Shown here one piece after another: positions 8,379 through 60,750 of a stretch of DNA of 64,000 nucleotides; position 1 is the first letter of the stretch; each line of letters starts with the position of its first letter. The translations under genes and the position numbers were made by a program. Where the stretch lies: contig NC_081186.1 in NCBI RefSeq assembly GCF_029867415.1, positions 16,314,930 to 16,378,929 on the forward strand, in the 5' to 3' direction. Below the pieces are notes generated by a model. That model saw nothing but the letters and a program-made list of their open reading frames with translations, had not been told where the DNA came from and made no database searches. The stretch is from Vicia villosa. Taxonomy: Eukaryota > Streptophyta > Magnoliopsida > Fabales > Fabaceae.

Positions 8379-8383
8379 TTGAA

Positions 8384-16111: not shown

Positions 16112-16205
<94 letters not shown>

Positions 16206-16217
16206 TGTATATATACA

Positions 16218-16265
<48 letters not shown>

Positions 16266-16556
16266 TTCATTCAGAAGAAGCAATAGAATTCTTGCGTAAA
16301 CTTACAAAATCGCTGTCAAACTGAAAAGCAAAATAACTTCATCTTCAACCTCACATCTAAGTGGAAAACCATTGTAATCAGTTGGATTAGTGGATTAAAT
16401 CCTCAGTTGAGGTAAATCATCTTGTCAGGGGTGGACTGGAGTAGTTTGGTTAACAACGAACTAGGATAAAAAGAATTGTGTTCATTGTTTTTATCTTCCA
16501 AGTTTTTGAGTTACACTTATTCAATCCCCCCTTTCTAAGTGTATTTCACTCCTTCA
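15661..16556 (+). repeat. E4 5' LTR (with two deletions and a TA expansion)
   Basis: This runs from TGTTAGAACAAG to CCTTCA, 896 bp. Compared with the 3' LTR (37930-39005) it lacks an internal block after GTGGTACTC (near 15745) and another before AAGTGGAAAACC (near 16360). The TATA-box region has expanded into about 150 bp of TA repeats. Confidence 0.93.
16114..16264. repeat. (TA)n microsatellite grown from the E4 LTR TATA box
   Basis: About 150 bp of alternating TA with four interspersed GTATATATAC/CATATATG interruptions, themselves palindromic. In the 3' LTR the same place reads CTATATATATAGAAG. Long open frames of alternating Ile and Tyr on both strands are artefacts of the repeat. Confidence 0.97.
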
Positions 16557-16557
16557 A

Positions 16558-16570
16558 TTGGCATCAGAGC
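16558..16570 (+). promoter_or_regulatory. E4 primer binding site
   Basis: TTGGCATCAGAGC, followed by GCCGGTTCTAGG, starts one base after the LTR and is identical to that of E1. Confidence 0.85.
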
Positions 16571-16638
16571 GCCGGTTCTAGGTGCAAGCACTTAAACGTG
16601 TTAGAAAAAAGATTCAGGGAGAAAAACACAAAGTCAAA

Positions 16639-18534
16639 ATGGTTGAAACAACTTCATCTACTCCTACTCCTGAACAGAACAACAATGGTAACAATGGAAG
16701 CAGTAGCTTCAATGGTTACAATAGACCACCTATCTTTGATGTTGAAAATTTTGAGTATTGGAAGGATAGACTTGAAAGTTACTTTCTTTGTCAAGATGGT
16801 GACTTATGGGACTTAGTGTTGGATGGTTACACACATCCTGTAAACACTCGTGGAGTCAAGATTCCAAGACAAGCTTTGAGTGATGACCAAAAGAAAGAAT
16901 TCAAGAATCATCACAAGTCAAGGACCATATTGTTAAATGTTATCTCTCATGCTGAGTATGAGAAGATAACAAATAGAGAAACAACTCATGATATTTTTGA
17001 ATCTCTAAAGATGACTCATGAGGGAAATGCTCAAGTAAAGGAGACAAAGGCTCTAGCTCTAGTCCAGAAATATGAAGCATTCAAGATGGAGGAAGATGAG
17101 AACATTGAAGCAATGTTTTCAAGGTTCCAGACTCTGACTGCTGGATTGAGAGTGCTAGATAAAGGCTACACCAAAGCTGATCATGTAAAGAGGATCATCA
17201 GAAACTTACCCAGAAGATGGGGCCCCATGGTGACTGCATTCAAGATTGCCAAGAATCTGAATGAAGTGTCTCTTGAGGAGCTGATCAGTGCCCTGAAGAG
17301 TCATGAGATTGAGTTGGATGCAAATGAACCTCAGAAGAAAGGTAAGTCTATTGCATTAAAATCTAATAATAAAAAATGCACTAACGCTTTTCACGCAGAA
17401 GAAGAAGAATCTGACCAGTCAGAGTCAGAAGAAGAAGAAGATGAAATGTCTCTAATATCCAGAAGAGTAAATCAACTCTAGAAAAGCAAGCAGAGAAAGT
17501 TCAAGAACTTCAAGAACTTCAAAAGACCTGAAAAGGGAGAATCTTCTGAACACAGAAGATCTAGCAAAAAGAAGTTGACGTGCTATGAATGTAAAGAGCC
17601 TGTACACTACAAAAATGAATGTCCAAAGCTTCATAGGGAAATGCTCAAGAAAAGATTTGAAAATAAGAAAGGTCTAATGGCTACATGGGATGACTCAGAT
17701 TCTTCTGATCAAGAGTCAGACTCTGAAGATAAGCAGGCTAACATAGCACTTATGGCAACAGTTGAAGCTGGTAAAGAGTCTACTTCTGATTCAGACTCTG
17801 ATGAGGTATTTTCTGAACTCACTAGAGATGATTTAGTTTCCAGCTTATCTAAACTTCTAGAAGTCAAGAGTCATCTTAGTATCAAATAAAAAAAGTTGAA
17901 AAAGCTCTTTGAATCTGAAACTAAGAGACTTGAAATAGAAAATTCTGAACTGAAAGAAAAAGTTTTAAAATTAACTAAAGATGTTGAATCATCTTCAAGT
18001 TCGAAAATGTCTATTCCAAGCACTAACAATATTCTGAAAGAATATGACTTGAGCTTCAGGAAGTTCTTATCTAGAGGTATAGGCAGAAGTCAGCTAGCCT
18101 CTATGATATATGGTGTAAGTGGAAAAAAAAGAATAGGCATAGGCTTTGAGGGTGAAACCCCATATAAACTTGAACCTGGTGATGAGATGATTATGACATA
18201 CAAACCTTTGTATGATCAGTTCAAGTATGGCCATTCCCATGATATTAAACACACATCACACTCTCAGAGTTTCCATATAACACACACAAAGAAATATGTT
18301 GCTACACAATCTAGAAAAGCTTATGTGAAACCTCATGCTAAATCTCAGTTCAATTAGAACTTGAGAAGGACTAACCCTAAAGGTCCCAAAAGAATGTGGG
18401 TACCTAAGGATGAGATAATTCCTGTTGCAGATCTCCTCCATAGTGCAAAAGACAAACATGTCATGGTACCTAGACTCTGGGTGCTCACGACACATGACGG
18501 GAAGAAGGTCTATGTTCCAAGATTTGGAACTTAA
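16639..18534 (+). pseudogene. gag: E4 gag (in frame throughout, three premature stops)
   Basis: This aligns with E1 Gag from MVE onward with no frameshift. Stops interrupt it: TAG at 17479-17481 (Trp codon in E1), TAA at 17887-17889 (Tyr codon in E1) and TAG at 18355-18357 (Gln codon in E1 and E3). The zinc knuckle is kept as CYECKEPVHYKNEC, with Val in place of the usual Gly. The C-terminus overlaps pol in the same +1 relation, ending KKVYVPRFGT. Confidence 0.93.
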
Positions 18535-21361
18535 AATCTGCTAGAGAAGTAAAGTTTGGAGGGAACCAGAAGGGCAAAATCATTGGCTCTGGAACCATAT
18601 GAGTTGGTAACTCTCCCTCTATAACTAATGTTCTTTTAGTAGATGGATTAGCTCATAACTTATTGTCCATAAGTCAATTAAGTGACAATGCTTATGACAT
18701 AATCTTCAATAAAAAGTCTTGTAAAGCTATTAGTCAGAAGGATGGCTCAATCCTATTTACAGGCAAGAGAAAGAACAACATTTATAAGATTGATCTTTCA
18801 GATCTTAAGAATCAAAAGGTTACTTGCCTTATGTCTGTTAGTGAAGAGAAGTGGGTCTGGCACAGAATATTGGGTCATGCTAATTTGAGAAAGATCTCAG
18901 ATTAACAAACTCAATCTGGTCAGAGGACTCCCTAATCAGAAATATAAATCAGACGCTCTTTGCGAAGCATGTCAGAAAGGGAAGTTTTCAAAACCTGCAT
19001 TCAAGTCTAAAAATGTTGTCTCTTCCTCTAGGCCGCTAGAACTTCTGCACATTGATCTTTTTGGCCCAGTCAAAACAACATCAATCAGAAGGAAGAAATA
19101 TGGATTAGTCATTGTAGACGACTATAGCAGATGGACATGGGTAAAGTTCTTGAAACACAAGGATGAGTCACATACTGTGTTCTTTGACTTCTGCACTCAA
19201 ATTCAATCTGAGAAGGAATGCAAAATCATAAAGGTCAGAAGTAATCATGGTGGTGAATTTGAGAACAGATTCTTTGAAATTTATTTCAAAGAAAATGGTA
19301 TTGCCCATGATTTCTCTTGTCCTAGAACTCCACAGCAAAATGGAGTTGTAGAACGAAAGAATAGGACTCTACAAAAACTGGCCAGAACCATGATCAATGA
19401 AACCAATATGACCTATTCTAAATAAGACTCCTTATGAGTTGTGGAAGAACAGAAGTGTTTTGAATACTAAAGATCATCTGCATAAGTTTGATTCTAAAGC
19501 TCAGAAGTGTTTTCTACTTGGATATTCTGAACGCTCAAAAGGCTACAGAGTATAAAATACTGAAACTCTGGGAGTTAAAGAATCAATCAATAACAAATTT
19601 TATGATAAGTTAGGTCTTGAAAAGCCAAAGCAGTTTGAGAATTTTGCAGATTTAGATATACCTAACTCAGATCATGAAGAACCCAAGAGTAAAGAGGTAT
19701 CAGAAGATCAAGTTGCAGCCTCTTTTGAGAATCTTAGAATATATGAAGAGCCAACACTCAGAAGGTCTTCTAGACTTAACTCTGCTCATCCAGAAGATGT
19801 TATCATTAGATAGAAAGATGATCCCATCAGAACTAGAGCATTCCTGAAAAACAATGCAGAATGTCAATTTGGTCTAGTGTCTTTGATTGAGCCAACTTCT
19901 GTTGATCAAGCTCTGGAAGATGCTGACTGGATAATTGCCATGCAAGAAGAGTTAAATTAGTTTACAAGGAATGATGTTTGGGATCTGGTTCCAAGACCAA
20001 AAGGATTTAACATCATTGGAACTAAGTGGGTCTTCAGAAACAAGCTGAGTGAGAAAGGTGCAGTCATCAGAAACAAAGCCAGACTGGTTTCTAAGGGCTA
20101 TAGTCAGCAAGAAGGTATTGACTATACAGAAACCTTTGTACCAGTGGCCAGGTTAGAATCTATTTGCTTATTAATTTCATTTGCCACTCAGAATAACATC
20201 ACTCTGTATCAGATGGATGTTAAGAGTGCCTTCTTAAATGGTTATATAGATGAAGAAGTTTATGTCAACCAACCTCCTGGTTTTGAAGACTCTAAGTCTC
20301 AAGAACATATTTTTAAACTAAAGAAATCACTATACAGATTGAAGCAAGCTCCCAGAGCTTGGTATGAAAGATTAAGTTCTTTCCTTCTGGATAATGGTTT
20401 CACAAAAGGAAAAGTAGACACAACTCTCTTCTGTAAAACCTTTAAAAAAGATATTTTAATTTGTCAAATATATGTTGATGATATTATATTTGGAACATCT
20501 AATGCTACACTTGGAAAGGAGTTTGCTAAGTCTATGCAGGCAGAATTTGAAATGAGCATGATGGGAGAACTCAAGTACTTCCTAGGCATTCAGATTAATC
20601 AAACTTTTAAAGGAACTTATGTTCATCAGACCAAGTATGTCAAAGAGCTTCTGGAGAAGTTCAATCTGTCTGAAAGCAAAGAAGCAAAGACTCCAATGCA
20701 TCCAACATGTGTATTAGGTAAGGATGAGGTAAGCAAGAAGGTAGATCAGAAGATCTATAGAGGTATGATAGGATCTCTTCTATATCTTATTGCTTCTAGG
20801 CCTGATATTTTATTCAGCGTATGCTTGTGTGCTAGATTCCAATCAGATCCTAGAGAATCTCACTTAACAGCTGTTAAGACAATTCTTACGTATCTGAAAG
20901 GTACTACTAATGTTGGTTTAGTCTACAGAAGATCTGAAGAATACAACTTAGTAGGATACTATGATGCTGATTACGCTGAAGATGGAGTTGAAAGGAAAAG
21001 TAATTCTGGAAGTTGTCAGTTTCTGGGTAGTCACCTGATCTCCTGGTACAGCAAGAAGCAAGCTACCATTGCACTCTCAACTACAGAAGCAGAATATGTT
21101 GCTGCTGCTGGATGTAGTACACATATGCTCTGGATGAAAAGTCAGCTAGAAGACTATCAGATATATGAGAGTAACATTCCTATATTCTGTGATAATACTT
21201 CTGCTATTTGTTTATCTAAGAATCCTATCTTACATTCTAAAGCTAAACATATTGAGATTAAACATCACTTCATTAGGGACTATGTTCAGAAGGGTGTTCT
21301 TTCTTTAAACATCATTGATACAGAACATCAGTGGTTCTTTCTTTCATGTTATCTCTCCTAA
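18458..21361 (+). pseudogene. pol: E4 pol (PR, IN, RT, truncated RNase H)
   Basis: Protease DSGCSRHMTG is intact at the start, in the +1 frame. Stops or frameshifts follow near 18534 and 18903. Two deletions of several tens of bases occur in integrase near 19410 and 19455 relative to E1, and further stops lie near 19552, 19810 and 19958. RT-RH is open from 20144, with [23 protein letters not shown] (around 20473) and TTEAEY. RNase H ends abruptly after DTEHQW (about 21330), where the sequence jumps into post-pol spacer. This copy cannot encode a working polyprotein. Confidence 0.92.
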
Positions 21362-21960: not shown

Positions 21961-22497
21961 ATATTTTTCAAAAAAGGATTTTGTTGAGATCAATTTTCTT
22001 TTTGTTTCAAAAATTACTATCAACAATAAATGACATTCTGAGAGATATGAAAGAAATAAGATTGCCAATAAAGGGTAAAGGCTCAAACTTTTTTAATAGA
22101 ATGGTAGCTTGCAAAAGGCAAGACCCCATAGATGATTACAAAGTTTGGAAAGTGGTAATTTTGTGGAAAAGGTACATTGAAATGTAATGACCCTATCCTC
22201 TCTCTCAACTTGGAATTCCTAGGCAAAGGCTTCCGTTGAAATGTGTTGAACTTCTTCATGATAAACAGATGACTGCTGATGATCAAGTCTTGTCTGATGT
22301 AGTTACTTGCCATAAATCCCTAACTTTTGCCTGGACCGCCCTTTCGGGTTTTCAGTCCACCAGGTATTTTATTCTGTTTATGTCTCTAATTTTTGCCTGG
22401 ACCGCCCTTTCGGGTTTTCAATCCACCGAGACGCTCTTTTTTGCCTAAGTCGCCCTTTCGGGTTTTCAACTTAGCGAGCTGTTCTTTTATTATTTTT
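21961..22497 (-). other. E6 3' untranslated region remnant
   Basis: About 540 bp after the pol stop. It contains three hairpins (22332-22474) and a stretch with GAAGTTCAACACATTTCAAC that resembles the matching place in E5 (near 54330). Beyond about 21961 no similarity is seen. Confidence 0.6.
22332..22474 (-). other. Three tandem GNRA-capped hairpins after E6 pol
   Basis: On the minus strand, hairpins at 22474-22445, 22425-22398 and 22359-22332 all read stem, AAAA, CCC, GAAA, GGG, stem. Stems are CTAAGTTG/CGACTTAG, TGGATTG/CGGTCCA and TGGACTG/CGGTCCA, closed with G-U pairs where bases differ. The first lies 23 bp beyond the pol stop. E5 has the same three units at 54133-54272 with compensatory changes. 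Confidence 0.85.
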
Positions 22498-39621: not shown

Positions 39622-40172
39622 TGTTATACCCCAAAATTTGCCCACATCTTTTTTCAAGAAAACTCCAATTTAAAAATTAGGAGTTTCATATAATCATGGA
39701 TTTTTATTTCATAAATATCCTGACATATGAAATACTTAGTTTTTAGAATTTTTCTTATACAGTATTTTGGCTCGCTGTTGAATTTATTCTTACGCAAACG
39801 CCAGTTACTGTTTATTACTTCACACACGATATTTATTTGATATTTATTTACAGATAAGTAGTACTGACGCAATTGGTACAGAGATAAATCTTTTGCAGGC
39901 GCAGAGTCCGGGATTCAGACTGTACTGGTAACAAGTAAATTATTACTAATTTTTTTGTTTCCCACTAACTTTTGTACTATATTCCATTATTTTCAACATC
40001 TTTTCCTTTCTTTTCAAATCTCTTTTTCAAAAATCAAATCTTAACTTTATTCTACACATCTCTCTTTTTTCCAACACTATCATACACTTTCTTTCAAATC
40101 TTACTTCCACTCAAATTTTCCTTTTGTACGGAATCACTTCATTCCCCAACGTCTCTATCCTTCTTTTCATTC

Positions 40173-40180
40173 TATAAATA
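40173..40180 (+). promoter_or_regulatory. E5 LTR TATA box
   Basis: TATAAATA in the context TTCTATAAATACCTCTC, preceded by a pyrimidine-rich stretch. The same box is at 56573-56580 in the 3' LTR. It fits a transcription start roughly 30 bp downstream. Confidence 0.8.
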
Positions 40181-40271
40181 CCTCTCATTTTTTCCATAAA
40201 ATCTCACATCAAATTCTAACTCATCTCTCAAATTTCTACTTCATATTCATTCTCTCTTCCTCCCCGGCAAA

Positions 40272-40439
40272 ATGGCGAAGCGGATGGAAACGTGTTTTCT
40301 TATGGTCATCACCATTGCTACGGTGATCATGTCCTTCTTCTGTCTGCATAGTCCTGAAAAATGTAGACCTGCGATGGTTACACTCCCGATCATCTATTTT
40401 CTGTTGGTCATAGCATGGGTTATTAATCGTCATTCTTAA
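40272..40439 (+). CDS. LTR-encoded two-helix membrane microprotein (55 residues)
   Basis: This is the first ATG after the TATA box, about 92 bp downstream and in the favourable context CAAAATGGCG. The product starts MAKRMET and has two hydrophobic spans (about residues 8-25 and 34-51) separated by a short loop with HSPEKC, and it ends NRHS. This predicts a hairpin of two membrane helices with a basic N-terminus. The 3' LTR copy (56672-56839) is intact and differs by a single Arg/Gly change at residue 32. I do not recognise the family. It could be a real protein or a uORF controlling translation of the long leader. Confidence 0.5.
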   Translation: MAKRMETCFLMVITIATVIMSFFCLHSPEKCRPAMVTLPIIYFLLVIAWVINRHS

Positions 40440-43400
40440 AGTTTGTCGTATCTCTTATTTTCTTAAATGTACCATTTACTCGTCGTACTGTTCATTATAG
40501 TATGTAATATTTGTACTGTTAGTATTAAATGTTGTACTATTTGTCATACTGTTGCTTAATTATTCAGATAATATTTTGTGTAACAGTCAAATATTTTTTT
40601 TTCTGTGCATTAAATGATTTTCAGGGTTATCGGTAATTTTGCTCGCGTACAGTAAATATTAGTTATTTATTATGTCTGTGTTTTTTAACAAGTCAAGTAG
40701 ATAAACTTTCGTCTTCCACATAAAACAAAAACAACCAAAAGAAAATTAACTTTAACTGTTGATTTTTCACTCTAACTGCTACATTAATACCTGAACAGTC
40801 AGTTGACAGTCAAAACTGCTGACAGTACAATTCTCCGTGTCTTGTACCATCAATCAAATCAAACTTTTGCATTTCAAAATTCCAAGATTTTTGTCCTAGA
40901 AGTCTTCTGAATATCACATGATTAGCAGAGACTTAGCACTGCACAAAAAATCAGGTACGCTTAACTGTCTCCTACACAAACAGTCCCTAATTAGGGTTTA
41001 TTGTTTTTTCAGGAGAAACAAGTTTTTGAGACCTCAAATGGATTTCATGGACCTCCATATATCTCAAAGTACCACCATACCAATTTTCAAACTTCAATTC
41101 GCTCAGACGCACAGTCAGCAGCTCAAACAGTCAACAGACGACCCGTTTGACCAAAAAAAGTCAACAGACAGTCAAAAATGAATTTTTTTGTCAACATCCA
41201 TATTTTGTCAAAGGATTCATCATTTTATCATTGGATGATCATAATTCATCAAGGAAAGATCAAAAGTCAACAAAACCCTAAGATTCAAAATTAGGGTTTT
41301 CTCCTAAAATATCAACTGAACTTTGACTGGTCATAACTCTCTCATCCTTCATTCAAAAAATTCAAACCAAAGCTCATTGTGAAGGAAATTCAATTATCTT
41401 TCAAATGCAATTGGTCCCATGACCATTTGATTCACCATTTGAAAAATATGAACCAAAACATTACAGGTCATTTTCAAAGTCAACAAAAAGAAACTTTTTT
41501 CAAAAGGACACACAAGGAGCATGGAAAATCATTTTGACATGAGACCAAAGAAATTGGTTAGAGGACTCTTTGTGGTTTCCAAAAAGTGCAAGATCTCCTT
41601 CATATCATAAATATTGAGGGATTTACACCTTGTTGAAGTTGGCTAAATTTTGGGAAAATGCATAAAACCAACATTGATCAAAAATGTATTTTTTCCAAAT
41701 GGGGCCAAGTTTTCATAGTTCAAACATGTTTACCATGATATAATGGGCATCCCACGACCAAGACAAAGCCCACATCATTTTTGTTCCATTTTTGATTTAA
41801 TTTTATCATAATTAAGATTAAATTGAAAAAGGAAAATGGAAGGATAATGCATAGCTTAATTTCTAAGCATGACTCACCAAAGAATCTTCAATTTTCTGCA
41901 ACAAGAGGAAGTACAAGGAAAGAGAAGTGAAGAAGAGCAAGACTTGGTCAAATTTTCAAAGATTTTTAATATTTAAAAATCAAAGTTTCAACAAAGCTCA
42001 TCAATGCTTTTAGCTTAGTTTTTAAGCACCATGTAGCTTATAAATTAGGTAGCATACTTCATCAATGTAAGAGAGAGACACGAAATAGAGCAAGATATAG
42101 CATAAACTCATTGCATATTTCAAAAATAATCAAAGAAACTTCAAAATTCGTATTTAAATTTGCAGCTAGTTTCAAAGCAAACTAAGTCCATAAATCACTT
42201 CCTGAAACTTATTTGAGCAAGTTCAGATCCATAACCAAGTTCATAGAGGCATGAAACTCGAGTTCTCTCACTCTCCGATTCGGTAAACTTTCATTGATTT
42301 CAAACTCTCATTTTATGTGTTGTTATCATGTCTAATGGTTATGGTTGAGTTTGTAATAATCATTAGGTCAGGTTTGAACCCTAGCATGAGAGTTCTAACG
42401 TCCAGAACGTAGGTTGCCATTGTCAACCGTGAGTTTATGTTTCTCTTCGAATCTCTTAACACAAGCACTTTCAGTCCAAACTAACCTAACCATTGGATTC
42501 CCAGACCTCGATTTAGGGGGGTAGGGTCTTCATTTGGTGTTTAGCTAACGTATTTTTTGCAGTTGAAGGTTGACCTCGCCGGAGAAGACAACCGGAAAAC
42601 ACTGTTCTGGTGGTCAGCAAGGCTAGGGCGTGGTTGACTGCATGCGTGGCTTCCTCCCTCTCTCCTATTGGCTAGTCAACAAGTCCATGGCTCGCGTGGC
42701 AAAATGATAAAACATGATTGGTTCTGGTTTAAAAAACGTGGACCCCACATAACTTAAATTCACAAAAAAATAGAAACAAGTGAACTGGGCCTATGCGAAT
42801 TGATTTCTACACCCCTGGTTTCTGGCCCAAATACACCACTTGAACTGAAATCAGTTCTTTTCCAGATTTACTTAATACACCCCCTGCATATTTTAATTAA
42901 TAATCTCTATATTTTGCATTTTAATTAAAATCAACCAATCACAAAACACCAAAAATATTTTATTTTTTAGTTTTAATCTGATAAAATATTTACTTATTTT
43001 TAGACATAAAAATATTAATATTTTATTTAAATTAAGGCTATTTTGCATAATTAATTAGTATATATTTATATATTTGCTTTTTAATTATCTTAACCAATCA
43101 AAAAATCATAAAAAAATTTTGTTCTTTATATTAAATATTGTTTATATATTATAAACTAATTTTGTACATATTTAGAATAATTTTCTCTTTAAGTTTTAAT
43201 TATTTGTGTAATTATTTGTATAATTATGTGTTAATTAACTTAATCAATTTCAAATCAATTTCAAAAATTCCAAAAAAATTAATTTTGTTTTAAAATTAAT
43301 TGACAAGTATTTTGAACATATTTTAAACTTAATTTTTAGGTTTAAATTTTATTTCCATCTTTTCCTCATTTTAATTAAATTAATCATGCATTAATTATAA

Positions 43401-44348
43401 TTAAAATCAATCATAAAAATCCAAAAAACACTTCTTTTATTTTCTTGCACTTTAAATTCCTAGATCAAGTGTATAGGTTGTCAAATCCATGTAAATAGCG
43501 TAGTTTACATTTCCTGCACAATCAATGTAATAGCGTAGATTTACTTTCCGCATTTTACATTTCCGCATTTTAAATTCCAGCACATATAAACTGCGTGTAT
43601 GTCAAAGATGAAAATTGAATCGTTAGATCACTAACTTCAAAGATAAAATATCTGAATCTAAACACAATCACACTTGCACCTCTTAAGGTAATCCCTTTTC
43701 TCATTCTTTTCAAAATCAAAAAATCAAATTCTACTGTTTCGAGTACAAAATCGAACTTTTGTTTATATCCGGTGAAAGGATAGATTTTTAAAGGAAATAG
43801 GATAAAGACCTTATAACTCAGGGTAGACCTCCTAATTTGCTTGCTCAAATCAAAACAAACAAATCTCTCATATATCATTGTTTTTCAAAATAAAACTTTC
43901 AAAAAGACAATACTTTGTATACATCCAAACAAGGATCATTACGAAGTTAATGTTCTTTTTTCAAAACATCTTTTGAAAGATAAAAACACTTTGTATACAT
44001 CCGCACAAGGATCATTACAAAGTCAATTTACAAAGGTATTTGAAACCATATACGAGCATTTCAAGGCAATAGAAAAGTAATTGAAAACAAGTGAGCTAAG
44101 CAAATTAAAGAGCCCATGGATAACCATGGATACAAAGGGTGCTAACACCTTCCCTTTGTATAACCTACCCCCTTACCCAGAATTTCTTAAAGGTCTTTTT
44201 TCTGTTTCTTTTATAAACCTTTCCTTAATTGGATAAAATAAAAGGTTGGTGGCGACTCTCTGATTTTCAAATACAAAAGCAGAAACAAAAAAGAGTCAGT
44301 TCGCGTATCTCTCCGCGAGAGGTATGGCAAAAAACCGAGGGCGCGACA

Positions 44349-45048
44349 GAACTGGCGACTCTGCTGGGGATTTACTTTCTAAAAACAAAATGTTTTCAAA
44401 AGGGGTTACCTTTAGAGAATAGATCACTTCGATGTTTTCAATTGTTTGGCTTGATTGCTCTATTTTTCAAAGGTTTGTTTGGGTATTTTGCTTGTGTGAA
44501 AGATTCTAACCCGAATCTCGAGATACCTTAAGTATGTGACAATAGATCAAGGAAACTGTACGGCATGTACCGATACGGTTGATCTGGTAGTCACCGTTAA
44601 TGCGATACTTTGGTTTATACTGATGTCCCTTGAAAATGATCAAGGAGTATATTAGGCTTCCGAAATGTCATTAAACACTAATTTGTCTTAGAACCTTTTA
44701 GTTGAACTTGACTTGTGGCCTATTAAGTGGCTAGCTTTGAAGTTGATCGAAGTTAGTTATCCTCGAGGAATATTTTGATCGGCCGTCCGAGCGTCGTATT
44801 GAGATGTTACCTCCAAGGATCATAGAACCCAAATACTATTCTAGGACAGGTTTTAACCATCTCAACTTCAGTGGGGAGGGTATCACCTATCAGCTTCATG
44901 CAAGCGTTTAAACTTAAGGCTATTGTTTGATTTGTTTTTGTGTGCCACATGTTTGACATCATAACATCATAAGCATCATAAGCATATCATTTTCTCACTA
45001 ATCATTTCAAGGATCAAAGAGTTTACCTTTGTTTTGTTATTGCAGGTA
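44349..45048 (+). other. E5 leader (primer site to ORF1)
   Basis: This is the untranslated region after the 5' LTR. The primer site is at 44353-44370. The remainder has no long frame and probably includes packaging signals. Confidence 0.65.
44353..44370 (+). promoter_or_regulatory. E5 primer binding site
   Basis: TGGCGACTCTGCTGGGGA lies four bases after the LTR and differs from the E6 site at a few inner positions. Ogre is reported to prime with tRNA-Arg. Confidence 0.85.
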
Positions 45049-46392
45049 ATGGCTCCCGCCACCAGAGATTACATCCGAATCAACATCTCAACGGTGCCAT
45101 CTGAACTGAAAAACGTAGTATCAGAATTCCCCAGGAATGTTCAATTCACCGAAAAGCACGGTCACCTACTCCATTTGGTTACCTCAAAATTTGAAGAAGA
45201 CATGATACGGGTCCTGTTCCAGTTCTTTGACCCCGAACATCATTGCTTTACCTTTCCTGATTACCAGTTAGTACCCACCTTGGAAGAGTTTTCTGAACTA
45301 ATTGGGTTACCTGTTCGAGATCAACTACCTTTCACTGGTTTAGAAAGGATTCCAAAACCTGAAATCATTGCTGCTGCTTTACATTTGCGAAAGTCAGAAA
45401 TCGAGTCCAATTGGGAAACAAAGAGTGGAATCCAGGGTTTGCTTGCTAAGTTCTTAATGGAAAAGGCTCGATTACTACTAGAAAACAAAAGTTACCCAGC
45501 TTTTGAGGAGGTTGTGGCTCTTTTGATCTATGGGTTGGTTTTATTCCCTAATCCCGACCAATTCATAAGTGTGCACATCATCAACCTTTTCCTAACCCGT
45601 AACCCGGTACCAACATTGCTGGGAGACATTCTACATTCTCTACACACTCGTACCATGAAGAAACGAGGAACTCTTATGTGCTGTATACCACTACTAGCTA
45701 GATGGTTTACATTTCATCTTCCCCGATCAGTGTTGAGGACTGAACAAAGAATGCAATGGTCTCGCAGGATTATGTCTTTGTCTCATTCAGATATCCGGTG
45801 GAACAACTTCTTTCAAAGAGACATTACTATCATTGATCATTGTGAAGAGTACCCTAATGTGCCACTACTTGGCATCAAAGGGGGCATCACTTACAATCCC
45901 TCTTTAGCTTTACGCCAATTCGGATATGCAAGGAGAAACGGTCCTCACGACATGATTATCCGTGGCATTGTGTTTGATTACGAGGATGATTCCCATAGAC
46001 ACCGACGAAGGTTCATACATGCATGGGGCAGTGTCTATAGAATAGAAAGCAAAACTTTGGGGCAATGGAATTCTATTCCTATGGAACCTTACCTCAGATG
46101 GGTGCGGGATCATGCTCAGAAACTCATCATGCCATATCCCGCTATTCTACCTGTGACTATTGAGCCAGAAGTCGAAGGAGACGAACCTCAAGTTATTCTA
46201 CATCCGGATATGCCAACTGACCTGGAAGAATTGCAGAAATCTTGGGTTCAACTAAAAGAGGAAAGAGACACCTTCAAAGCACACTGTCAAGACTATGAGA
46301 GAAGATTATTGGAGCTCACCGGACAACTCCAAGAAGAACAGCTGATCAACACATTCCTGGGTGCAAAGAGAAAGCGTCCATGGGAGACCTGA
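45049..46392 (+). CDS. E5 ORF1 (Ogre-specific protein upstream of gag)
   Basis: This is an intact frame of 447 residues. I chose the Met of MAPATRDYI, which has a good context (TAATGGCT) and follows the leader; an in-frame Met lies five codons upstream. Residues about 60-130 hold the family signature HCFTFPDYQLVPTLEEFS and IGLPV. A charged C-terminal coiled coil (about 390-440) includes LKEERDTFKAHCQDYE. As far as I recall, plant annotations label this family as a domain of unknown function found in Ogre ORF1 and in host genes. It is the only large E5 frame without a stop. Its role in the element is unknown. Confidence 0.85.
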   Translation: MAPATRDYIRINISTVPSELKNVVSEFPRNVQFTEKHGHLLHLVTSKFEEDMIRVLFQFFDPEHHCFTFPDYQLVPTLEEFSELIGLPVRDQLPFTGLERIPKPEIIAAALHLRKSEIESNWETKSGIQGLLAKFLMEKARLLLENKSYPAFEEVVALLIYGLVLFPNPDQFISVHIINLFLTRNPVPTLLGDILHSLHTRTMKKRGTLMCCIPLLARWFTFHLPRSVLRTEQRMQWSRRIMSLSHSDIRWNNFFQRDITIIDHCEEYPNVPLLGIKGGITYNPSLALRQFGYARRNGPHDMIIRGIVFDYEDDSHRHRRRFIHAWGSVYRIESKTLGQWNSIPMEPYLRWVRDHAQKLIMPYPAILPVTIEPEVEGDEPQVILHPDMPTDLEELQKSWVQLKEERDTFKAHCQDYERRLLELTGQLQEEQLINTFLGAKRKRPWET

Positions 46393-50391: not shown

Positions 50392-50649
50392 GTAAATGCA
50401 ATTTCCTGTTTTCGTTGTTTATATTGTTCAAAGATAAAAATGGTTCCTGTACTATCGAACCATGAACTCGAAAACCGTGTGCCTTGCCCGAAGCACACTG
50501 GTCCTTTTATAAGGGTTTGTCATATCATGAGCATGTGCATTCAATAAAATCATGGGACGTTTGCATATTCAAATTTTGTGATCCTTTTTCTTTCTTTGCT
50601 TTTCAAAATAGCTATGTTTTCTTACACAAACCCACATAAATAAATGCAG
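50392..50649 (+). other. E5 predicted intron between PR and RT (258 bp)
   Basis: The donor is GA|GTAAATGC, the acceptor AAATGCAG|ATTC. Removal makes a GAA codon and continues through FTFTLDPVNN in the RT frame. Unspliced RNA terminates at the TAA inside the donor. E6 has the same design with unrelated intron sequence. Confidence 0.82.
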
Positions 50650-53600
50650 ATTCACATTCACTTTGGATCCAGTCAATAACGATTCTGCTATTTCCCGTCA
50701 TGACTTTGAAAATCCGATCTACCAAACTGAGGACGAAAGTGAGGAAGATTGTGAAGTACCAAGAGAACTTGCAAGGCTGCTAGAACAAGAAGAGAAGGCT
50801 ATACAGCCTCATGAGGAACCAGTTGAGGTTATCAACTTGGGCAGCAACGAAGAAAAGAAAGAAGTCAAAATAGGGGCTGATTTAGAAAACTGTGTCAAGC
50901 AAAGACTGATTCAAATGTTGCAAGACTACATCGAGATATTCGCCTGGTCCTATGAAGATATGCCAGGCCTTGACACGGACATTGTGGTTCATCGCCTGCC
51001 AATCAAAGAAGGTAGCACTCCAGTCAAGCAGAAACTACGAAGGAGTAGGCCTGATATGTCAAAAAAGATCAAAGACGAGGTTGAAAAGCAATTCAATGCC
51101 GGCTTCCTAAAAGTTGTAAGTTATCCTCCTTGGATAGCTAACATCGTGCCCGTACCTAAAAAAGACGGGAAAGTCAGAATGTGTGTAGACTACAGAGATC
51201 TGAACCGGGCAAGCCCCAAAGATGATTTCCCTTTACCTCACATCGATGTACTGGTTGATAATACCGCACAATGCAAGGTATTCTCCTTTATGGATGGATT
51301 CTCAGGGTACTATCAAATCAAGATGGCACCCGAAGACATGGAAAAAACAACCTTCACAACACCCTAGGGAACCTTTTGTTACAAAGTAATGCCCTTTGGT
51401 TTAAAGAACGCAGGAGCAACCTATCAACGTGCAATGGTAGCTCTATTTCATGATATGATTCATCAGGAGATAGAGGTGTATGTCGATGATATGATTGCAA
51501 AGTCCAACACCGAAGAAGAACATCTGGGTCATCTACACAAGCTATTTGACAGACTCAAGAAATACATGTTGCGACTGAATCCAAATAAGTGTACCTTTGG
51601 AGTAAGATCCGGCAAACTCTTAGGTTTCATCGTCAGTAGCAAAGGTATTGAGGTTGATCCTGCCAAGGTCAAAGCCATTCAAGAAATGCCTATACCCCGT
51701 ACCGAGAAACAAGTCAGAGGATTCTTGGGACGTCTGAATTACATCGCCCGATTTATTGCCCACATGACTACTACTTGTGTGCCGATCTTCAAACTGTTGA
51801 AGAAAGATCAAGTGGAAAGGTGGAATGACAAATGCCAGTTAGCCTTTGACAAAATCAAAGAGTATCTCCAAAAACCGCCAATTTTGTTACCACCTGTGGA
51901 AGGAAGACCTCTGATAATGTACCTAACTGTGTTAGAAGATTCAATGGGGTGTGTACTGGGGCAACATGACGAGTCCGGCCGAAAGGAGCATGCAATCTAC
52001 TATCTTAGCAAAAAGTTTACCGATTGTGAAACAAGATACTCACTACTCGAAAAAACTTGTTGTGCCTTAGCATGGGCGGCTCGCCGACTAAGACAGTATA
52101 TGCTAAATCATACCACTTTCCTAATCTCCAAAATGGATCCTATCAAGTATGTGTTCGAAAAACCTGCTCTCTCTGGAAGAATAGCAAGATGGCAAATGAT
52201 CTTAACAGAATATGACATTCAATACACTTCACAAAAAGCAATCAAAGGAAGTGTGGTAGCTGATCATCTGGCTCATCAAGCAGTGGATGATTATCAAACA
52301 TTGAACTTTGACTTCCCAGACGAGGACATTATGCTAGTCAATGACTACAAACAACCAGGACCAGAAGTAGGACCCGAGCCAGGATCCCGGTGGACTATGG
52401 TTTTTGACGGAGCTTCTAACGCACTTGGCAATGGCATCGGAGCTGTGATCATTTCTCCTGCAGGAGGTTATACACCATTCACTTCCAGATTATGCTTCAA
52501 CTGCAATAACAATATAGCCGAGTACGAAGCATGTATTCTGGGTCTCAAAGCTGCAATCGATCTAAGAATCAAGTTCCTGAAGGTCTACGGAGACTCGGCC
52601 TTGGTAATTTACCAAGTCAAAGAGGAATGGGACACGAAGCACCCGAATCTAATTCCTTACAAAGAATATGTGCTGAGTCTGATTCCTTATTTCGAAGAAA
52701 TCACTTTTGAACACATCCCACGCGAGGAAAATCAACTAGCTGATGCCTTAGCTACCATGTCATCCATGTTCAAAGTCAGGTGGGACAATGAGGCGCCGAT
52801 GATCACCATTTACAGACAAGATGAACCATCCTATTGCAATGAGATCGATGCCGAAGGAACGGAAGAAAAACCATGGTTCCATGAAGTAAAAAGTTATCTC
52901 GAAGCTCAGGAGTACCCTGAAGGGGCGTCCATTAACGACAGAAAGTTTCTAAGGAGGTTTGCTTCCAATTTCTTTCTAAGTAATGGGACCCTATACAAAC
53001 GCAACCATGACTCGACTTTACTTCGTTGTGTAAACAAGAAGGAAGCAGAACAGATTATGGAAGACATACACGATGGTGCCTTTGGTACTCATTCAAGTGG
53101 ACACACAATGGCTAAAAAGATCCTCAGAGCAGGTTATTACTGGTCTACCATGGAGACAGACTGTCATCATCATTCCAGAACCTGTCACAAAGGTCAGATA
53201 TATGCTGACAAAGTACATGTACCTCCAGTTCCGTTAAACGTCCTGACGGCTCCTTGGCCTTTTGCAATGTGGGGTATTGATATGATTGGAGAAATAAAGC
53301 CTACTGCCTCCAACGGACATCGCTTTATCCTGGTCGCTATCGACTACTTCACTAAAGGGGTACAAGCAGCTTCTTTTGCTTCTATCACCAAAAATGTTGT
53401 GGCCCGATTTATTAAGCACAATCTCATTTGTCGTTATGGCATCCCTGAACGGATCATCACAGACAATGGCACAAATCTAAACAACAGAATGATTACTGAA
53501 CTTTGCACACAGTTTAAGATCAAACATCATAATTCTTCTCCATATCGACCAAAGATGAATGGCGCAGTGGAAGCTGCCAATAAAAACATCAAGAAAATCA

Positions 53601-54121
53601 TACAAAAGATGACAGTAACCTACAAAGACTGGCATGAGATGTTACCTTTTGCTCTTCATGGTTATCGCACATCTGCGCGTACTTCAACAGGGGCAACTCC
53701 ATTCTCCTTAGTCTATGGTATGGAGGCAGTTCTTCCAATTGAAATTCAGATTCCTTCCCTAAGGATTATGAAAGAAGCCGATCTAGACGAAGACGATTGG
53801 ATTCAGACCCGGTTGGACCAGATAAACTTGATTGATGAGAAAAGGCTCGCAACTATTTGTCATGGTCAATTGTACCAAAAGCGTATGATTAAAGCCTTCA
53901 ACAAAAAAGTCAAAAGTCAGGCATATCAAACTGGTGGCTTGGTTGTCAAACGCATCATCTTACCACAAGGTGATCCCAGAGGCAAGTGGACTCCCACTTA
54001 TGAGGGACCATTTGTAATCAAGAAAATATTCTCCGGCGGTGCCATGTTGCTTACCACTATGGATGGCGAGGATTTCCCACACCCTGTAAATGCGGACATA
54101 GTCAAAAAATACTTCGCTTGA
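50650..54121 (+). pseudogene. pol: E5 pol: RT, RNase H, aRNase H, integrase (one nonsense codon)
   Basis: This 1157-codon exon has a single TAG at 51365 where E6 has Trp. RT carries VPVPKKDGKV, FMDGFSGYYQI and YVDDMIAKS (51479-). RNase H: LGQHDESGRKEHAIYYLSKK. The archaeal-type second RNase H is at about 52391-52780 with VFDGASNALGNG, YGDSALV and PREENQLADALA. Integrase spans about 53060-54000. Its zinc finger has H..H but reads CHKG in place of CHKC. The catalytic region has MWGIDMIG, ITDNGTNL and NGAVEAANK. The E6 motif YFTKWVEAA is YFTKGVQAA here. Loss of the finger Cys and the nonsense codon suggest it is inactive. Confidence 0.93.
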
Positions 54122-54132
54122 AGAAAAGCTCG

Positions 54133-54272
54133 CTAAGTTGAAAACCTGAAAGGGCAACTTAGGCAAAAAATGAGCGTCTCGGTGGATCGAAAACCCGAAA
54201 GGGCGATCCGGGCAAAAATTAGACACTAAATAATACTATCCCGGTAGGCTGAAAACCTGAAAAGGCAGCCTA
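54133..54272 (+). other. Three tandem GNRA-capped hairpins after E5 pol
   Basis: Hairpins at 54133-54162, 54184-54209 and 54245-54272 share one plan: outer stem, AAAA on the 5' side only, a 3-bp inner stem, GAAA loop. Outer stems are CTAAGTTG/CAACTTAG, GGATCG/CGATCC and TAGGCTG/CAGCCTA, all perfect though unlike in sequence. Inner stems are CCT/GGG, CCC/GGG and CCT/AGG. Each is followed by GGCAAAA. The first starts 12 bp beyond the pol stop. E6 has the same three units. Confidence 0.88.
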
Positions 54273-55124
54273 GGCAAAAGTTAGGGAATAAAGCGTACAA
54301 CTATGTTTCGTTCAGTTGCCTACTCACCTTCAAGATTCAACACATCAAAGACACCGATCAGTCGAATTACTTTCTTCCAACAAGTGAGGGATGAGATGCT
54401 CGAAGACAGATTGGTAATAGCAGAATTGAAACTTGACTGGATTGTTTTCACATAGCTATTTATCTTTATAAACTCTTTTCAAAACTTTATGACAATTTCC
54501 TGCTACTAGGATTGTTGTCTCCCTGTACTAATCAGCCTATCATGGCTCTTTTTCAAAAATCAATGCATCTTATGCTCAAAATCAACATTTTCACTTTTTG
54601 TGTTTTGAATACGTAAACGTCCCAATGATAATTTTGAATGAACATGTGCATTTGAATATGATTGATGTTTACCAGGAAAAACAGGAATAGCATTCAAGTA
54701 ATGTCCCGATCATTTGGACATCATCCCGAAGCCAGCATCTGAAGAAAAATCTCCAACAGAGATGCATTTCTCAGCAAAATCCTCGATAAGATTTTTCTCT
54801 CCAAGCAAAGTGATTCGAGAAATCTTATCCCCCAGCAGGGCTGTTCCAGATTACTATCTCCAGAAGGCGTGGTCTCCACACCAGGACTTGGTCAAATAGT
54901 GCATCGGAGGATTATGCATCTTCCTCATTCCCACTTTAAAGGGCATCAAAATCAGAACTTTCAAATTACCTTTCATCCCTGAACAGTAGTCGAAGATCCT
55001 TTAACAGAGTACCATGGTTCTCAAAGAAGGTTCCCAGCCGAGGGTACTCAAACAAGACGGCAAAAATCATCAACGATCACAATGCCTTCACGTCCAGATG
55101 ACTAGCTGGGATTTATTTTCCCAA

Positions 55125-55222
55125 CCATACATCATACATCATACATCATATATCATACATCATACATCATACATCATACATCGTACATCATACATCATAC
55201 ATCATACATCATACGTCATACA
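55125..55222 (+). repeat. (TCATACA)n microsatellite in E5 3' UTR
   Basis: About 14 copies of a 7-bp unit with a few point changes. Confidence 0.95.
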
Positions 55223-55510
55223 CATATTGATACACAACATATAATGTTTCATGACAAACGCATACATAACATGCATATTTCTCCTTTAGTTAGAGAATCT
55301 CATGCATTACATACATCATGCCATTGCATATCACTAACTTGATTTTTTAGGCATACGGATGTCTTCAACAAAGATGTTCTCAATCACATACAGTGTTCCC
55401 CTTGAACTCTATTCAAATAAGCAGTCCTCTCAGATATAATCAAGCCAAGGATTCATTCTGAAGAGATCTCTCCTTTCAAATCACTTATCAACTCAAAAAA
55501 CAAGTAACAC

Positions 55511-55745
55511 AGATCAAAGCTGATACCTCAGACGGTTCCAGAACGATCTACCATCGAAGATCTAAAGCTGATACCTCAGACGGTTCCAGAACGATCTACC
55601 ATCGAAGATCTAAAGCTGATACTTCAGACGGTTCCACAACGATCAACTTTCAAAATCTAAAGCGGAAAAACTTTGGACGGTTCCATAACGATCATCCTCC
55701 TAGACTTAAAGCGGTAACCTTGGACGGTTCCGGAACAGTCAACGC
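55511..55745 (+). repeat. Five tandem 48-bp units in E5 3' UTR
   Basis: AAAGC(T/G)G starts at 55516, 55564, 55612, 55659 and 55708 (period 47-49). All share GACGGTTCC followed by AACGATC-type sequence. Units 1 and 2 are nearly identical and 3-5 are progressively diverged. Confidence 0.9.
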
Positions 55746-56021: not shown

Positions 56022-59000
56022 TGTTATACCCCAAAATTTGCCCGCATCTTTTTTCAAGAAAACTCCAATTTAAAAATTAGGAGTTTCATATAATCATGGA
56101 TTTTTATTTCATAAATATCCTTACATATGAAATACTTAGTTTTTAGAATTTTTCTTATACAGTATTTTGGCTCGCTGTTGAATTTATTCTTACGCAAACA
56201 CCAGTTACTGTTTATTACTTCACACACGCTATTTATTTGATATTTATTTACAGATAAGTAGTACTGACGCAATTGGTACAGAGATAAATCTTTTGCAGGC
56301 GCAGAGTCCGGGATTCAGACTGTACTGGTAACAAGTAAATTATTACTAATTTTTTTGTTTCCCACTAACTTTTGTACTATATTCCATTATTTTCAACATC
56401 TTTTCCTTTCTTTTCAAATCTCTTTTTCAAAAATCAAATCTTAACTTTATTCTACACATCTCTCTTTTTTCCAACACTATCATACACTTTCTTTCAAATC
56501 TTACTTCCACTCAAATTTTCCTTTTGTACGGAATCACTTCATTCCCCAACGTCTCTATCCTTCTTTTCATTCTATAAATACCTCTCATTTTTTCCATAAA
56601 ATCTCACATCAAATTCTAACTCATCTCTCAAATTTCTACTTCATATTCATTCTCTCTTCCTCCCAGGCAAAATGGCGAAGCGGATGGAAACGTGTTTTCT
56701 TATGGTCATCACCATTGCTACGGTGATCATGTCCTTCTTCTGTCTGCATAGTCCTGAAAAATGTGGACCTGCGATGGTTACACTCCCGATCATCTATTTT
56801 CTGTTGGTCATAGCATGGGTTATTAATCGTCATTCTTAAAGTTTGTCGTATCTCTTATTTTCTTAAATGTACCGTTTACTCGTCGTACTGTTCATTATAG
56901 TATGTAATATTTGTACTGTAAGTATTAAATGTTGTACTATTTGTCATACTGTTGCTTAATTATTCAGATAATATTTTGTGTAAAAGTCAAATATTTATTT
57001 TTCTGTGCATTAAATGATTTTCAGGGTTATCGGTAATTTTGCTCGCGTATAGTAAATATTAGTTATTTAGTATGTCTGTGTTTTTTAACAAGTCAAGTAG
57101 ATAAACTTTCGTCTTCCACATAAAACAAAAACAACAAAAAGAAAATTAACTTTGACTGTTGATTTTTCACTCTAACTGCTACATTAATACTTGAACAGTC
57201 AGTTGACAGTCAAAACTGCTGACAATACAATTCTCCGTGTCTTGTACCATCAATCAAATCAAACTTTTGCATTTCAAAATTCCAATATTTTTGTCCTAGA
57301 AGTCTTCTGAATATCACATGATTAGCAGAGACTCAGCACTGCACAAAAATCAGGTACGCTTAACTGTCTCCTACACAAACAGTCCCAAATTAGGGTTTAT
57401 TGTTTTTTCAGGAGAAACAAGTTTTTGAGACCTCAAATGGATTTCATGGACCTCCATATATCTCAAAGTACCACCATACAAATTTTCAAACTTCAATTCG
57501 CTCAGACGCACAGTCAGCAGCTCAAACAGTCAACAGACGACCCGTTTGACCAAAAAAAGTCAACAGACAGTCAAAAATGAAATTTTTTATCAACATCCAT
57601 ATTTTGTCAAAGGATTCATCATTTGATCATTGGATGATCATAATTCTTCAAGGAAAGATCAAAAATCAACAAAACCCTAAGATTCAAAATTAGGGTTTTC
57701 TCCTAAAAAGTCAACTGAACTTTGACTGGTCATAACTCTCTCATCCTTCATCCAAAAAGTTCAAACCAAAGCTCATTGTGAAGGAAATTCAATTATCTTT
57801 CAAATGCAATTGGTACCATGACCATTTGATCACCATTTGAAAAATATGAACCAAAACATTACAGGTCATTTTCAAAGTCAACAAAAAGACACTTTTTTCA
57901 AAAGGACACACAAGGAGCATGGAAAATCATTTTGAAATGATACCAAAGACATTGGTTAAAGGACTCTTTGAGGTTTCCAAAAAGTTCAAGATCTCCTTCA
58001 TATGATAAATATTGAGGGATTTACACCTTGTTGAAGTTGGCTAAATTTTGGGAAAATGCATAAAACCAACATTGATCAAAAATGTATTTTTTCCAAATGG
58101 GGCCAAGTTTTCATAGTTCAAACATGTTTACCATGATATAATGGGTCTCCCACGACCAAGACAAAGCCCACATCATTTTTGTTCCATTTTTGATTTAATT
58201 TTATCATAATTAAGATTAAATTGAAAAAGGAAAATGGAAGGATAATGCATAGCTTAATTTCTAAGCATGACTCACCAAAGAATCTTCAATTTTCTGCAAC
58301 AAGAGGAAGTACAAGGCAAGAGAAGTGAAGAAGAGCAAGACTTGGTCAAATTTTCAAAGATTTTTAATATTTAAAAATCAAAGTTTCAACAAAGCTCATG
58401 AATGCTTTTAGCTTAGTTTTTAAGCACCATGTAGCTTATAAATTAGGTAGCATACTCCATCAATGTAAGAGAGAGACACGAAATAGAGCAAGATATAGCA
58501 TAAACTCACTTCATATTTCAAAAATAATCAAAGAAACTTCAAAATTCGTATTTAAATTTGCAGCTAGTTTCAAAGCAAACTAAGTCCATAAATCACTTCC
58601 TGGAACTTATTTGAGCAAGTTCAGATCCATAACCAAGTTCATAGAGGCCTGAAACTCGAGTTCTCTCACTCTCCGATTTGGTAAACTTTCATTGATTTCA
58701 AACTCTCATTTTATGTGTTGTTATCATGTCTAATGGTTATGGTTGAGTTTGTAATAATCATTAGGTCAGGTTTGAACCCTAGCATGAGAGTTCTAACGTC
58801 CAGAACGTAGGTTGCCATTGTCAACCGTGAGTTTATGTTTCTCTTCGAATCTCTTAACACAAGCACTTTCAGTCCAAACTAACCTCACCATTGGATTCCC
58901 AGACCTCGATTTAGGGGGGTAGGGTCTTCATTTGGTGTTTAGCTAACGTATTTTTTGCAATTGAAGGTTGACCTCGCCAGAGAAGACAACCGGAAAACAC

Positions 59001-60750
59001 TGTTCCCGTGGTCAGCAAGGCTAGGGCGTGGTTGACTGCATGCGTGGCTTCCTCTCTCTCTCCTATTGGCTAGTCAACAAGTCCATGGCCGCGTGGCAAA
59101 ATGATAAAACATGATTGGTTCTGGTTTAAAAAACGTGGACCCCACATAACTTAAATTCAGAAGAAAAAAAATAGAAACAAGTGAACTGGGCCTATGCGAA
59201 TTGATTTCTACACCCCTGGTTTCTGGCCCAAATACACCTCTTGAACTGAAATCAGTTCTTTTCCAGATTTACTTAATACACCCCCTGCATATTTTAATTA
59301 ATAATCTCTATATTTTGCATTTTAATTAAAATCAACCAATCACAAAACACCAAAAATATTTTATTTTTTAGTTTTAATCTGATAAAATATTTACTTATTT
59401 TTAGACATAAAAATATTAATATTTTATTTAAATTAAGGCTATTTTGCATAATTAATTAGTATATATTTATATATTTGCTTTTTAATTATCTTAACCAATC
59501 AAAAAATCATAAAAAAATTTTGTTCTTTATATTAAATATTGTTTATATATTATAAACTAATTTTGTACATATTTAGAATAATTTTCTCTTTAAGTTTTAA
59601 TTATTTGTGTAATTATTTGTATAATTATGTGTTAATTAACTTAATCAATTTCAAATCAATTTCAAAAAATCCAAAAAAATTAGTTTTGTTTTAAAATTAA
59701 TTGACAAGTATTTTGAACATATTTTAAACTTAATTTTTAGGTTTAAATTTTATTTCCATCTTTTCCTCATTTTAATTAAATTAATCATGCATTAATTATA
59801 ATTAAAATCAATCATAAAAATCCAAAAAACACTTCTTTTATTTTCTTGCACTTTAAATTCCTAGATCAAGTGTATAGGTTGTCAAATCCATGTAAATAGC
59901 GTAGTTTACATTTCCTGCACAATCGATGTAATAGCGTAGATTTACTTTCCGCATTTTACATTTCCGCATTTTAAATTCCAGCACATATAAACTGCGTGTA
60001 TGTCAAAGATGAAAATTGAATCGTTAGATCACTAACTTCAAAGATAAAATATCTGAATCTAAACACAATCACACTTGCACCTCTTAAGGTAATCCCTTTT
60101 CTCATTCTTTTCAAAATCAAAAAAATCAAATTCTACTATTTCGAGTACAAAATCGAACTTTTGTTTATATACGGTGAAAGGATAGATTTTTAAGGGAAAT
60201 AGGATAAAGACCTTATAACTCAGGGTAGACCTCCTCATTTGCTTGCTCAAATCAAAACAAACAAATCTCTCATATATCATTGTTTTTCAAAATAAAACTT
60301 TCAAAAAGACAATACTTTGTATACATCCAAACAATGATCATTACGAAGTTAACGTTCTTTTTTCAAAACATCTTTTGAAAGATAAAAACACTTTGTATAC
60401 ATCCGCACAAGGATCATTACAAAGTCAATTTACAAAGGTATTTGAAACCACATACGAGCATTTCAAGGCAATAGAAAAGTAATTGAAAACAAGTGAGCTA
60501 AGCAAATTAAAGAGCCCATGGATAACCATGGATACAAAGGGTGCTAACACCTTCCCTTTGTATAACCTACCCCCTTACCCAGAATTTCTTAAAGGTCTTT
60601 TTTCTGTTTCTTTTATAAACCTTTCCTTAATTGGATAAAATATAAGGTCGGTGGCGACTCTCTGATTTTCAAATACAAAAGCAGAAACAAAAAAGAGTCA
60701 GTTCGCGTATCTCTCCGCGAGAGGTATGGTAAAAAACCGAGGGCGCGACA
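56022..60750 (+). repeat. E5 3' LTR (4729 bp)
   Basis: This second copy of the Ogre LTR is collinear over its length with the 5' copy and differs by scattered substitutions and 1-4-bp indels. It is followed by the ACTGG TSD. It includes the TATA box at 56573-56580 and the microprotein ORF. Confidence 0.95.
56672..56839 (+). CDS. LTR-encoded two-helix microprotein, 3' LTR copy
   Basis: This 55-codon frame is the same as at 40272-40439, with one substitution (Gly for Arg at residue 32). It is intact here, with the same start context and the same position relative to the TATA box. From this LTR, transcription would run into E3 sequence. Confidence 0.5.
   Translation: MAKRMETCFLMVITIATVIMSFFCLHSPEKCGPAMVTLPIIYFLLVIAWVINRHS

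Follow-up and report, generated by a model that had tools for sequence, protein, structure and literature searches.

A tandem array of structured RNA modules behind the pol stop codon points to an undescribed control element in Ogre retrotransposon RNA

Does the short region behind the last open reading frame of a plant LTR retrotransposon encode an RNA structure that the element maintains, and if so, what might this structure do? The question arises from the window, i.e. the whole 64,000-nt stretch of Vicia villosa DNA analysed here, in which an initial annotation pointed out three tandem hairpin units at 54133-54272 and interpreted them as a selected RNA structure. The units are indeed present in the order described, namely outer stem, AAAA, 3-bp inner stem, GAAA and GGCAAAA. 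They belong to E6, an element whose domain order on 51389-54121 (RVT_1, RT_RNaseH, RVT_3, rve) is the Ogre order of RT, RNase H, archaeal-type RNase H and integrase (PMC6317226). E6 also has the extra ORF1 before gag and the very long LTRs (about 4.7 kb) of Ogre, a member of the Tat lineage of Ty3/gypsy elements; in the ORF map its ORFs are separated by a gap at 50395-50663, and its 3' UTR extends over about 1.9 kb from the stop codon to the 3' LTR. Among the matches listed, the best integrase relative is from pea (89% identity), and faba bean reaches 80%. A second Ogre copy, E5, lies on the minus strand; its pol, in two frames, has about 69% protein identity to that of E6. Elsewhere in the window, positions 1-20000 hold Ty1/copia-type ORFs (gag, integrase, RT) in blocks repeated three times directly, along with further inverted ones; several copia elements, either nested or lying side by side, may be present here.

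With the basal stems counted, the E6 array spans 54128-54287 (160 nt; Table 1), and units 1 and 2 abut, the basal stem of unit 2 starting right after the last basal-stem base of unit 1. Folding recovers the outer and inner stems in all six units of E5 and E6, and the fold energy is moderately below that of shuffled sequences (z -2.68 for E6, -3.10 for E5). The initial annotation correctly placed GGCAAAA after the hairpin, but had it as a tail; the folds predicted for five of the six units in the window make it a 3' bulge, closed by a basal stem that had been overlooked. The minimum-energy fold of E6 unit 2 pairs GUCU with GGGC of the bulge rather than with AGAC. The array does begin just after the stop codon, the gap to the first outer stem being 11 nt rather than the 12 reported, and the outer stems, said to differ completely between units, are in fact partly related. 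Unit spacing varies by family: units 2 and 3 are 62 and 66 nt apart in the two window copies (22338-22467, minus strand; 54140-54266, plus strand), compared with 48 nt for the last two units of element L205.

Table 1. Positions of the array, its parts and its host elements in the window.
Feature	Position	Strand	Sequence or remark	Basis
E6 unit 1	54128..54175	+		Sequence, fold; covariance-model match on outer part
E6 unit 1, basal stem	54128-54131/54172-54175	+	GCUC/GAGC; possible extra pair G54132-U54171	
E6 unit 1, outer stem	54133-54140/54155-54162	+		
E6 unit 1, 5' bulge	54141-54144	+	AAAA	
E6 unit 1, inner stem	54145-54147/54152-54154	+		
E6 unit 1, loop	54148-54151	+	GAAA	
E6 unit 1, 3' bulge	54163-54171	+	GCAAAAAA(U)	
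E6 unit 2	54176..54224	+		Sequence, model match
E6 unit 2, proposed basal stem	54176-54179/54221-54224	+	GUCU/AGAC	Covaries across families; predicted in E5
E6 unit 2, outer stem	54184-54189/54204-54209	+		
E6 unit 2, 5' bulge	54190-54193	+	AAAA	
E6 unit 2, inner stem		+	CCC/GGG	
E6 unit 2, loop	54197-54200	+	GAAA	
E6 unit 2, 3' bulge		+	Contains GGCAAAAA	
E6 unit 3	54239..54287	+		Sequence, fold, model match
E6 unit 3, basal stem	54239-54242/54284-54287	+	UCCC/GGGA	
E6 unit 3, outer stem	54245-54251/54266-54272	+		
E6 unit 3, 5' bulge	54252-54255	+	AAAA	
E6 unit 3, inner stem		+	CCU/AGG	
E6 unit 3, loop	54259-54262	+	GAAA	
E6 unit 3, 3' bulge	54273-54283	+	GGCAAAAGUUA	
E5 three-unit array	22313..22480	-	Same as that of E6	Sequence, fold, model matches
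E6 5' LTR	39622..44348	+	98.4% identity to 3' LTR	
E6 ORF1	45034..46392	+	DUF7745; at Ogre ORF1 position	
E6 pol ORF	51389..54121	+	RT part, RNase H, RVT_3/archaeal-type RNase H, integrase; stop codon just 5' of array	
E6 3' UTR tandem repeat, 7 bp x 14.6	55126-55226	+	Separate from array	
E6 3' UTR tandem repeat, 48 bp x about 4	55511-55731	+	Separate from array	
E6 3' LTR	56022..60750	+		

The core of the module, GAAAACCYGAAARGGC, has six exact matches within the window and 23,188 in the 2.03-Gb genome, as opposed to a single match for the reversed pattern. The window lies on contig C7. From 100 of the core sites, none of them beyond the first 19 Mb of contig C1, 55 elements were grouped by eye and combined with E5 and E6 into a set of 57. 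The elements were chosen by the exact core, which includes one outer-stem pair, so that a conserved core proves nothing by itself; neither the basal stem nor the remaining outer-stem pairs had a part in the selection. An integrase tail and stop codon lie upstream of the array in 57/57 elements, which represent nine integrase clusters, and the A-bulge of the first core-matched unit is always found 19-117 nt past the integrase stop codon. A covariance model built from 32 units recovered 166 units at E ≤ 0.1 and one at 0.58 from 159 kb of elements, all inside arrays, with three model-matching units in 54/57 elements, two in L221 and one each in L207 and L214; in the window it found the six units plus one further weak match (E = 1.5). 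Matches of the core pattern in viral and prokaryotic contigs served as a control for chance: 162 of the 194 listed have an outer stem of 0-2 bp and 3 reach 7 bp, whereas 15 of 19 plant matches (overlapping loci from 4 elements) have one of 7-8 bp. Each listed viral or prokaryotic stretch holds a single core match and none an array, and a search for integrase relatives in viral contigs found none.

Across this set the modules follow a common plan: on the 5' side a basal stem (4-5 bp, carried by most units), a G, an outer stem (7-8 bp), the AAAA bulge, a 3-bp stem and a GAAA loop, and on the 3' side the return strands and the one-sided bulge GGCAAAA(NUUA), after which the basal stem closes. A simple string search of the 166 model-matched units gave GGCAAAA in 147, CGCAAAA in 10, GGAAAAA in 5, AGCAAAA in 2 and GGUAAAA in 1, with one unit unparsed; in L243 and L244 the A-run following GGC is longer. 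Some modules have diverged. L206-type elements have CUC/GAG inner stems and GYAAA loops, the L202 type has a GCAAA loop, and in L207, L214 and L221 a long A-rich loop caps a stem. In the L205, L240 and L241 types one unit lacks the inner stem (CAAACC-AAAA-GGGUUUG in L205 and L241), and an additional small unit is situated close to the stop codon. Since the apex can simplify while the stem and GGCAAAA (or a one-base variant of it) persist, we read the stem plus GGCAAAA as the near-invariant part. As an aside, the loop of the small extra module contains a short palindrome (ACGU or UCGA) in L205, L240 and L241, three of the six elements read for it, and could be a dimerisation loop. Unpaired bases of the array are 66% A, 10% U and 7% C in 42 elements, compared with 31% A in the next 300 nt, and the longest U run in the array is 2-3 nt in 42/42 of them.

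The Ogre 3' UTR thus opens with structured RNA modules, about three in tandem, on which selection acts at the RNA level in the sense transcript. Between E5 and E6, unit 3 changes from UAGGCUG/CAGCCUA to UGGACUG/CGGUCCA, which amounts to two complete double substitutions, and G-U wobble accounts for the differences in units 1 and 2; both points agree with the initial annotation. The same pattern emerges on a larger scale from two alignments. Pairing extends to 97.1% of the 480 cells in A2, a gap-free alignment of 32 units, against a mean of 89.5% in shuffles and a maximum of 51.7% when the strands are slid; double changes occur at 7 of the 15 pairs, in 63 cells versus at most 8 in slid versions. 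Alignment A3 (61 distinct units) is also 97.1% paired, with double changes at 10 of the 15 pairs and in 138 cells versus at most 22 in slid versions. Over both alignments the slid controls reach at most 55% pairing, compared with 97% in place, and the number of pair types is below that of the shuffles, as expected if mixed combinations are avoided. A count of ten pairs with double changes, as in A3, is also reached in 36 of 500 shuffles. Because A3 had been fitted to the structure of the model, it is A2 and a test on an integrase tree that carry the argument.

That tree was built from integrase DNA and is independent of the array. The test on it was confined to outer-stem and inner-stem pairs and drew on 154 of the 156 units defined by a regex, with each element contributing one unit per class; simplified units were omitted, and the shifted unit 3 of the L206 type was scored as partly broken. 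Of 72 changes at stem pairs, 59 end paired and 13 broken, a paired fraction above the null (mean 0.65, maximum 0.755), and there are 11 double compensations, compared with a null mean of 1.16 and a maximum of 5 in 200 runs. A tree-aware test of all column pairs, which has limited power, places two of the 15 structure pairs at E ≤ 0.05 and a third at 0.07, with the other 12 not significant; no pair outside the structure reaches E ≤ 0.05. Both tree-aware tests used custom scripts in the style of R-scape. The covariation proposed from two copies is significant, also when the null takes a tree into account. Non-Watson-Crick pairs in the distinct A3 units comprise 83 G-U, 3 A-C and 21 of other kinds, and the excess of G-U over A-C points to the sense RNA as the folded strand.

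Conservation relative to the surroundings provides a separate line of evidence. Between E5 and E6, 25 of 48 fourfold sites at the integrase end differ, while 166 nt of the array align at 86% and the compared remainder of the 3' UTR gives no significant match. In the 36 pairs formed by nine family representatives, divergence at fourfold sites is 0.42-0.71, placing silent integrase sites near saturation, and identity, gaps included, is 0.68-0.92 from the stop codon to the array end and 0.53-0.76 in the following 300 nt. As the raw identities of the most distant pairs overlap those of shuffles, alignment scores were compared instead: the score exceeds all 20 shuffles in 36/36 family pairs for the array and in 21/36 for the flank, and, per base, the array has the larger excess score in every one of the 36 pairs (mean 0.66 versus 0.17 for the flank). 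The stems are thus kept in other Ogre families despite near-saturated silent sites, and do not decay like neutral sequence. A coding tail can be dismissed, given that spacing and indels are not multiples of three and that stops occur in 27/27 frames of the nine representatives. Nor is the array a tandem repeat of the usual Ogre kind, as Tandem Repeats Finder fails to report it even at a score of 30. The hypervariable repeats of Tat/Ogre elements share the same 3' UTR with it, but consist of similar monomers and vary from element to element (E6 55126-55731; PMC7004042), whereas the array is conserved across families; the two E6 repeats are of the hypervariable-region kind from which satellites can arise. 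The pairing in the Ogre array is under selection; covariation and conserved stems within one genome bear out the selected RNA structure first suggested, and a function at the RNA level is, in our judgement, very probable.

Indirect evidence, from translations rather than DNA, places the array in a second species, Medicago truncatula, and again beside integrase. With two translated array frames as query, matches at E ≤ 10 comprised 51 small predicted proteins; 22 of these were made into a profile, which gave at least 651 matches at the same threshold. Among 144 distinct listed proteins, a loose regular expression detected two or more unit translations in 128 and one in 16. The organism is named for 12 of the best 120 profile matches, and in all cases it is M. 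truncatula, with locus tags on several chromosomes (P0133, P0163, P0189, P0192, P0201, P0202, P0207, P0220, P0226, P0233, P0243 and P0245). These twelve proteins, one of them annotated as a putative transmembrane protein, hold translated stretches of the array and are therefore probably annotation artefacts. Four ORFs from other sources run from the integrase tail (VKKYF) into the array.

The annotators knew of no description of such a structure, which holds for Rfam and for open-licence papers: Rfam gave no match in the window, the best at a low threshold scoring 20.1 bits against a gathering threshold of 41.3, and no account of the Ogre hairpin array, including its literal motif, was found in the papers. 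The poly(A)-binding loops of the ENE are U-rich, and identity with this element was rejected on account of the A-rich bulges of the array, in which no U run exceeds 3 nt (42 elements). The ENE of Arabidopsis Copia93/Evade, a stability element, resembles the array in being structured and in lying within the 3' UTR of an LTR retrotransposon of plants, but differs in that it binds the poly(A) tail (PMC12501189).

What, then, could the array be for? Long 3' UTRs trigger decay in plants, and that of Ogre measures 1.9 kb plus LTR sequence. Our best guess, tentative and short of probable, is a stop-proximal protein-binding platform that would protect Ogre RNA from decay: the repeated A-rich bulges would be docking sites for a protein, of the host or Gag, and several bound copies by the last stop codon could shield the RNA from nonsense-mediated or other decay. 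Such a role would fit the sense RNA, the stop-proximity, the approximately three modules, the A-rich GGCAAAA bulges and the long 3' UTR. The array might thus be the functional counterpart, with a different sequence, of the Rous sarcoma virus (RSV) RNA stability element, which likewise lies directly behind a stop codon and before a long downstream region of retroelement RNA, and whose minimal form is similar in size (155 nt versus the 160 nt of the E6 array; PMC2925335). The RSV element is reported to become inactive once it is shifted further along the UTR, at a distance from the stop codon; its full form measures 400 nt, is located behind gag and acts through pyrimidine-rich PTBP1 sites (PMC4764554). 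The Ogre array, known here from its sequence, differs in having A-rich bulges in repeated hairpins behind pol. CU-rich PTBP1 sites were not encountered in it (unpaired bases, 42 elements), so a protein partner would have to differ from PTBP1. The distance from stop codon to array, which varies by about 100 nt, speaks against the decay shield. Moreover, the place near the stop codon may be no more than a consequence of the UTR beginning upstream of the hypervariable repeats, and as to the integrase preceding all 57 sampled arrays, pol-less derivatives may just be rare in the sample.

Nearly as plausible as protection from decay, if on the unlikely side when taken by itself, is an element resembling constitutive transport elements, which would recruit host export factors for the unspliced, intron-containing genomic RNA. 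The retroviral constitutive transport element has a 3' position, as has the Ogre array, and the transport elements of retroviruses are also structured cis elements for unspliced retroelement RNA. Its repetition, fixed orientation and abundance of unpaired A would suit the array to such a role, but it differs from retroviral and IAP/musD transport elements in its repeated short modules and the lack of an Rfam match. Export owes its near-equal standing to the partial splicing of the Ogre intron (PMC6317226) and to the fact that export of LTR-element RNA, according to PMC12786077, has not been directly studied in plants. The latter source names Ogre as an exception to the general lack of introns in plant LTR elements and describes structured RNA transport elements in the animal elements IAP and musD (PMC12786077). 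The NXF1-type receptor pathway is that of the animal cases, and for plant LTR elements it would be putative, which counts against this reading. In addition, export leaves the position right behind the stop codon unexplained.

Somewhat less likely still is a packaging or assembly signal, in which Gag would bind to the GGCAAAA bulges and genomic RNA would thereby be marked out for virus-like particles. Tandem unpaired GGCAAAA next to stems (147/166 units) would be a plausible recognition format, and the array is present in 57/57 sampled elements; packaging signals, however, are usually found at the 5' end, the 3' UTR would be common to spliced and unspliced RNA and thus could not select the latter, and the GAAA loops are not self-complementary, which argues against loop-loop dimerisation. 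We consider it improbable that the array is a 3' translation element that aids initiation on the long Ogre leader in the manner of the 3' cap-independent elements of plant RNA viruses. Its position directly after the last ORF, with gag-pol behind a long ORF1, is compatible with this role; 3' cap-independent elements, however, generally use a loop to pair with the 5' UTR, whereas the loops of the array are mostly GAAA, and there is no Rfam match. That the array has no RNA function and is a DNA motif, a coding tail or a neutral tandem duplication is very improbable: the units are related to each other and tandem repeats are known in Ogre 3' UTRs (PMC7004042), but compensatory changes, the wobble bias of the sense strand, non-triplet indels, stops in all frames examined and the silence of Tandem Repeats Finder at score 30 all contradict it.

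The sequence of the array has changed but its shape has been maintained, and this points to a control element of Ogre RNA not described before. Ogre elements make up a large part of several legume genomes, and the export, protection and packaging of plant LTR-element RNA are poorly known; a compact and strongly conserved element at a fixed place offers a direct handle on these processes, through reporters, probing and as bait for a protein partner. The array also marks the 3' ends of Ogre and is the probable source of a group of spurious gene models. In a wider perspective, and with a confidence slightly below even, we suggest that it may represent a new modular class of cis-acting RNA, a 'stem plus GGCAAAA bulge' in about three copies at the terminal stop codon of plant Ty3/gypsy elements, by which these elements would escape RNA decay or nuclear retention. 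Such a class would count about 23,000 core copies in a single legume genome and date back far enough for Medicago to have it as well.
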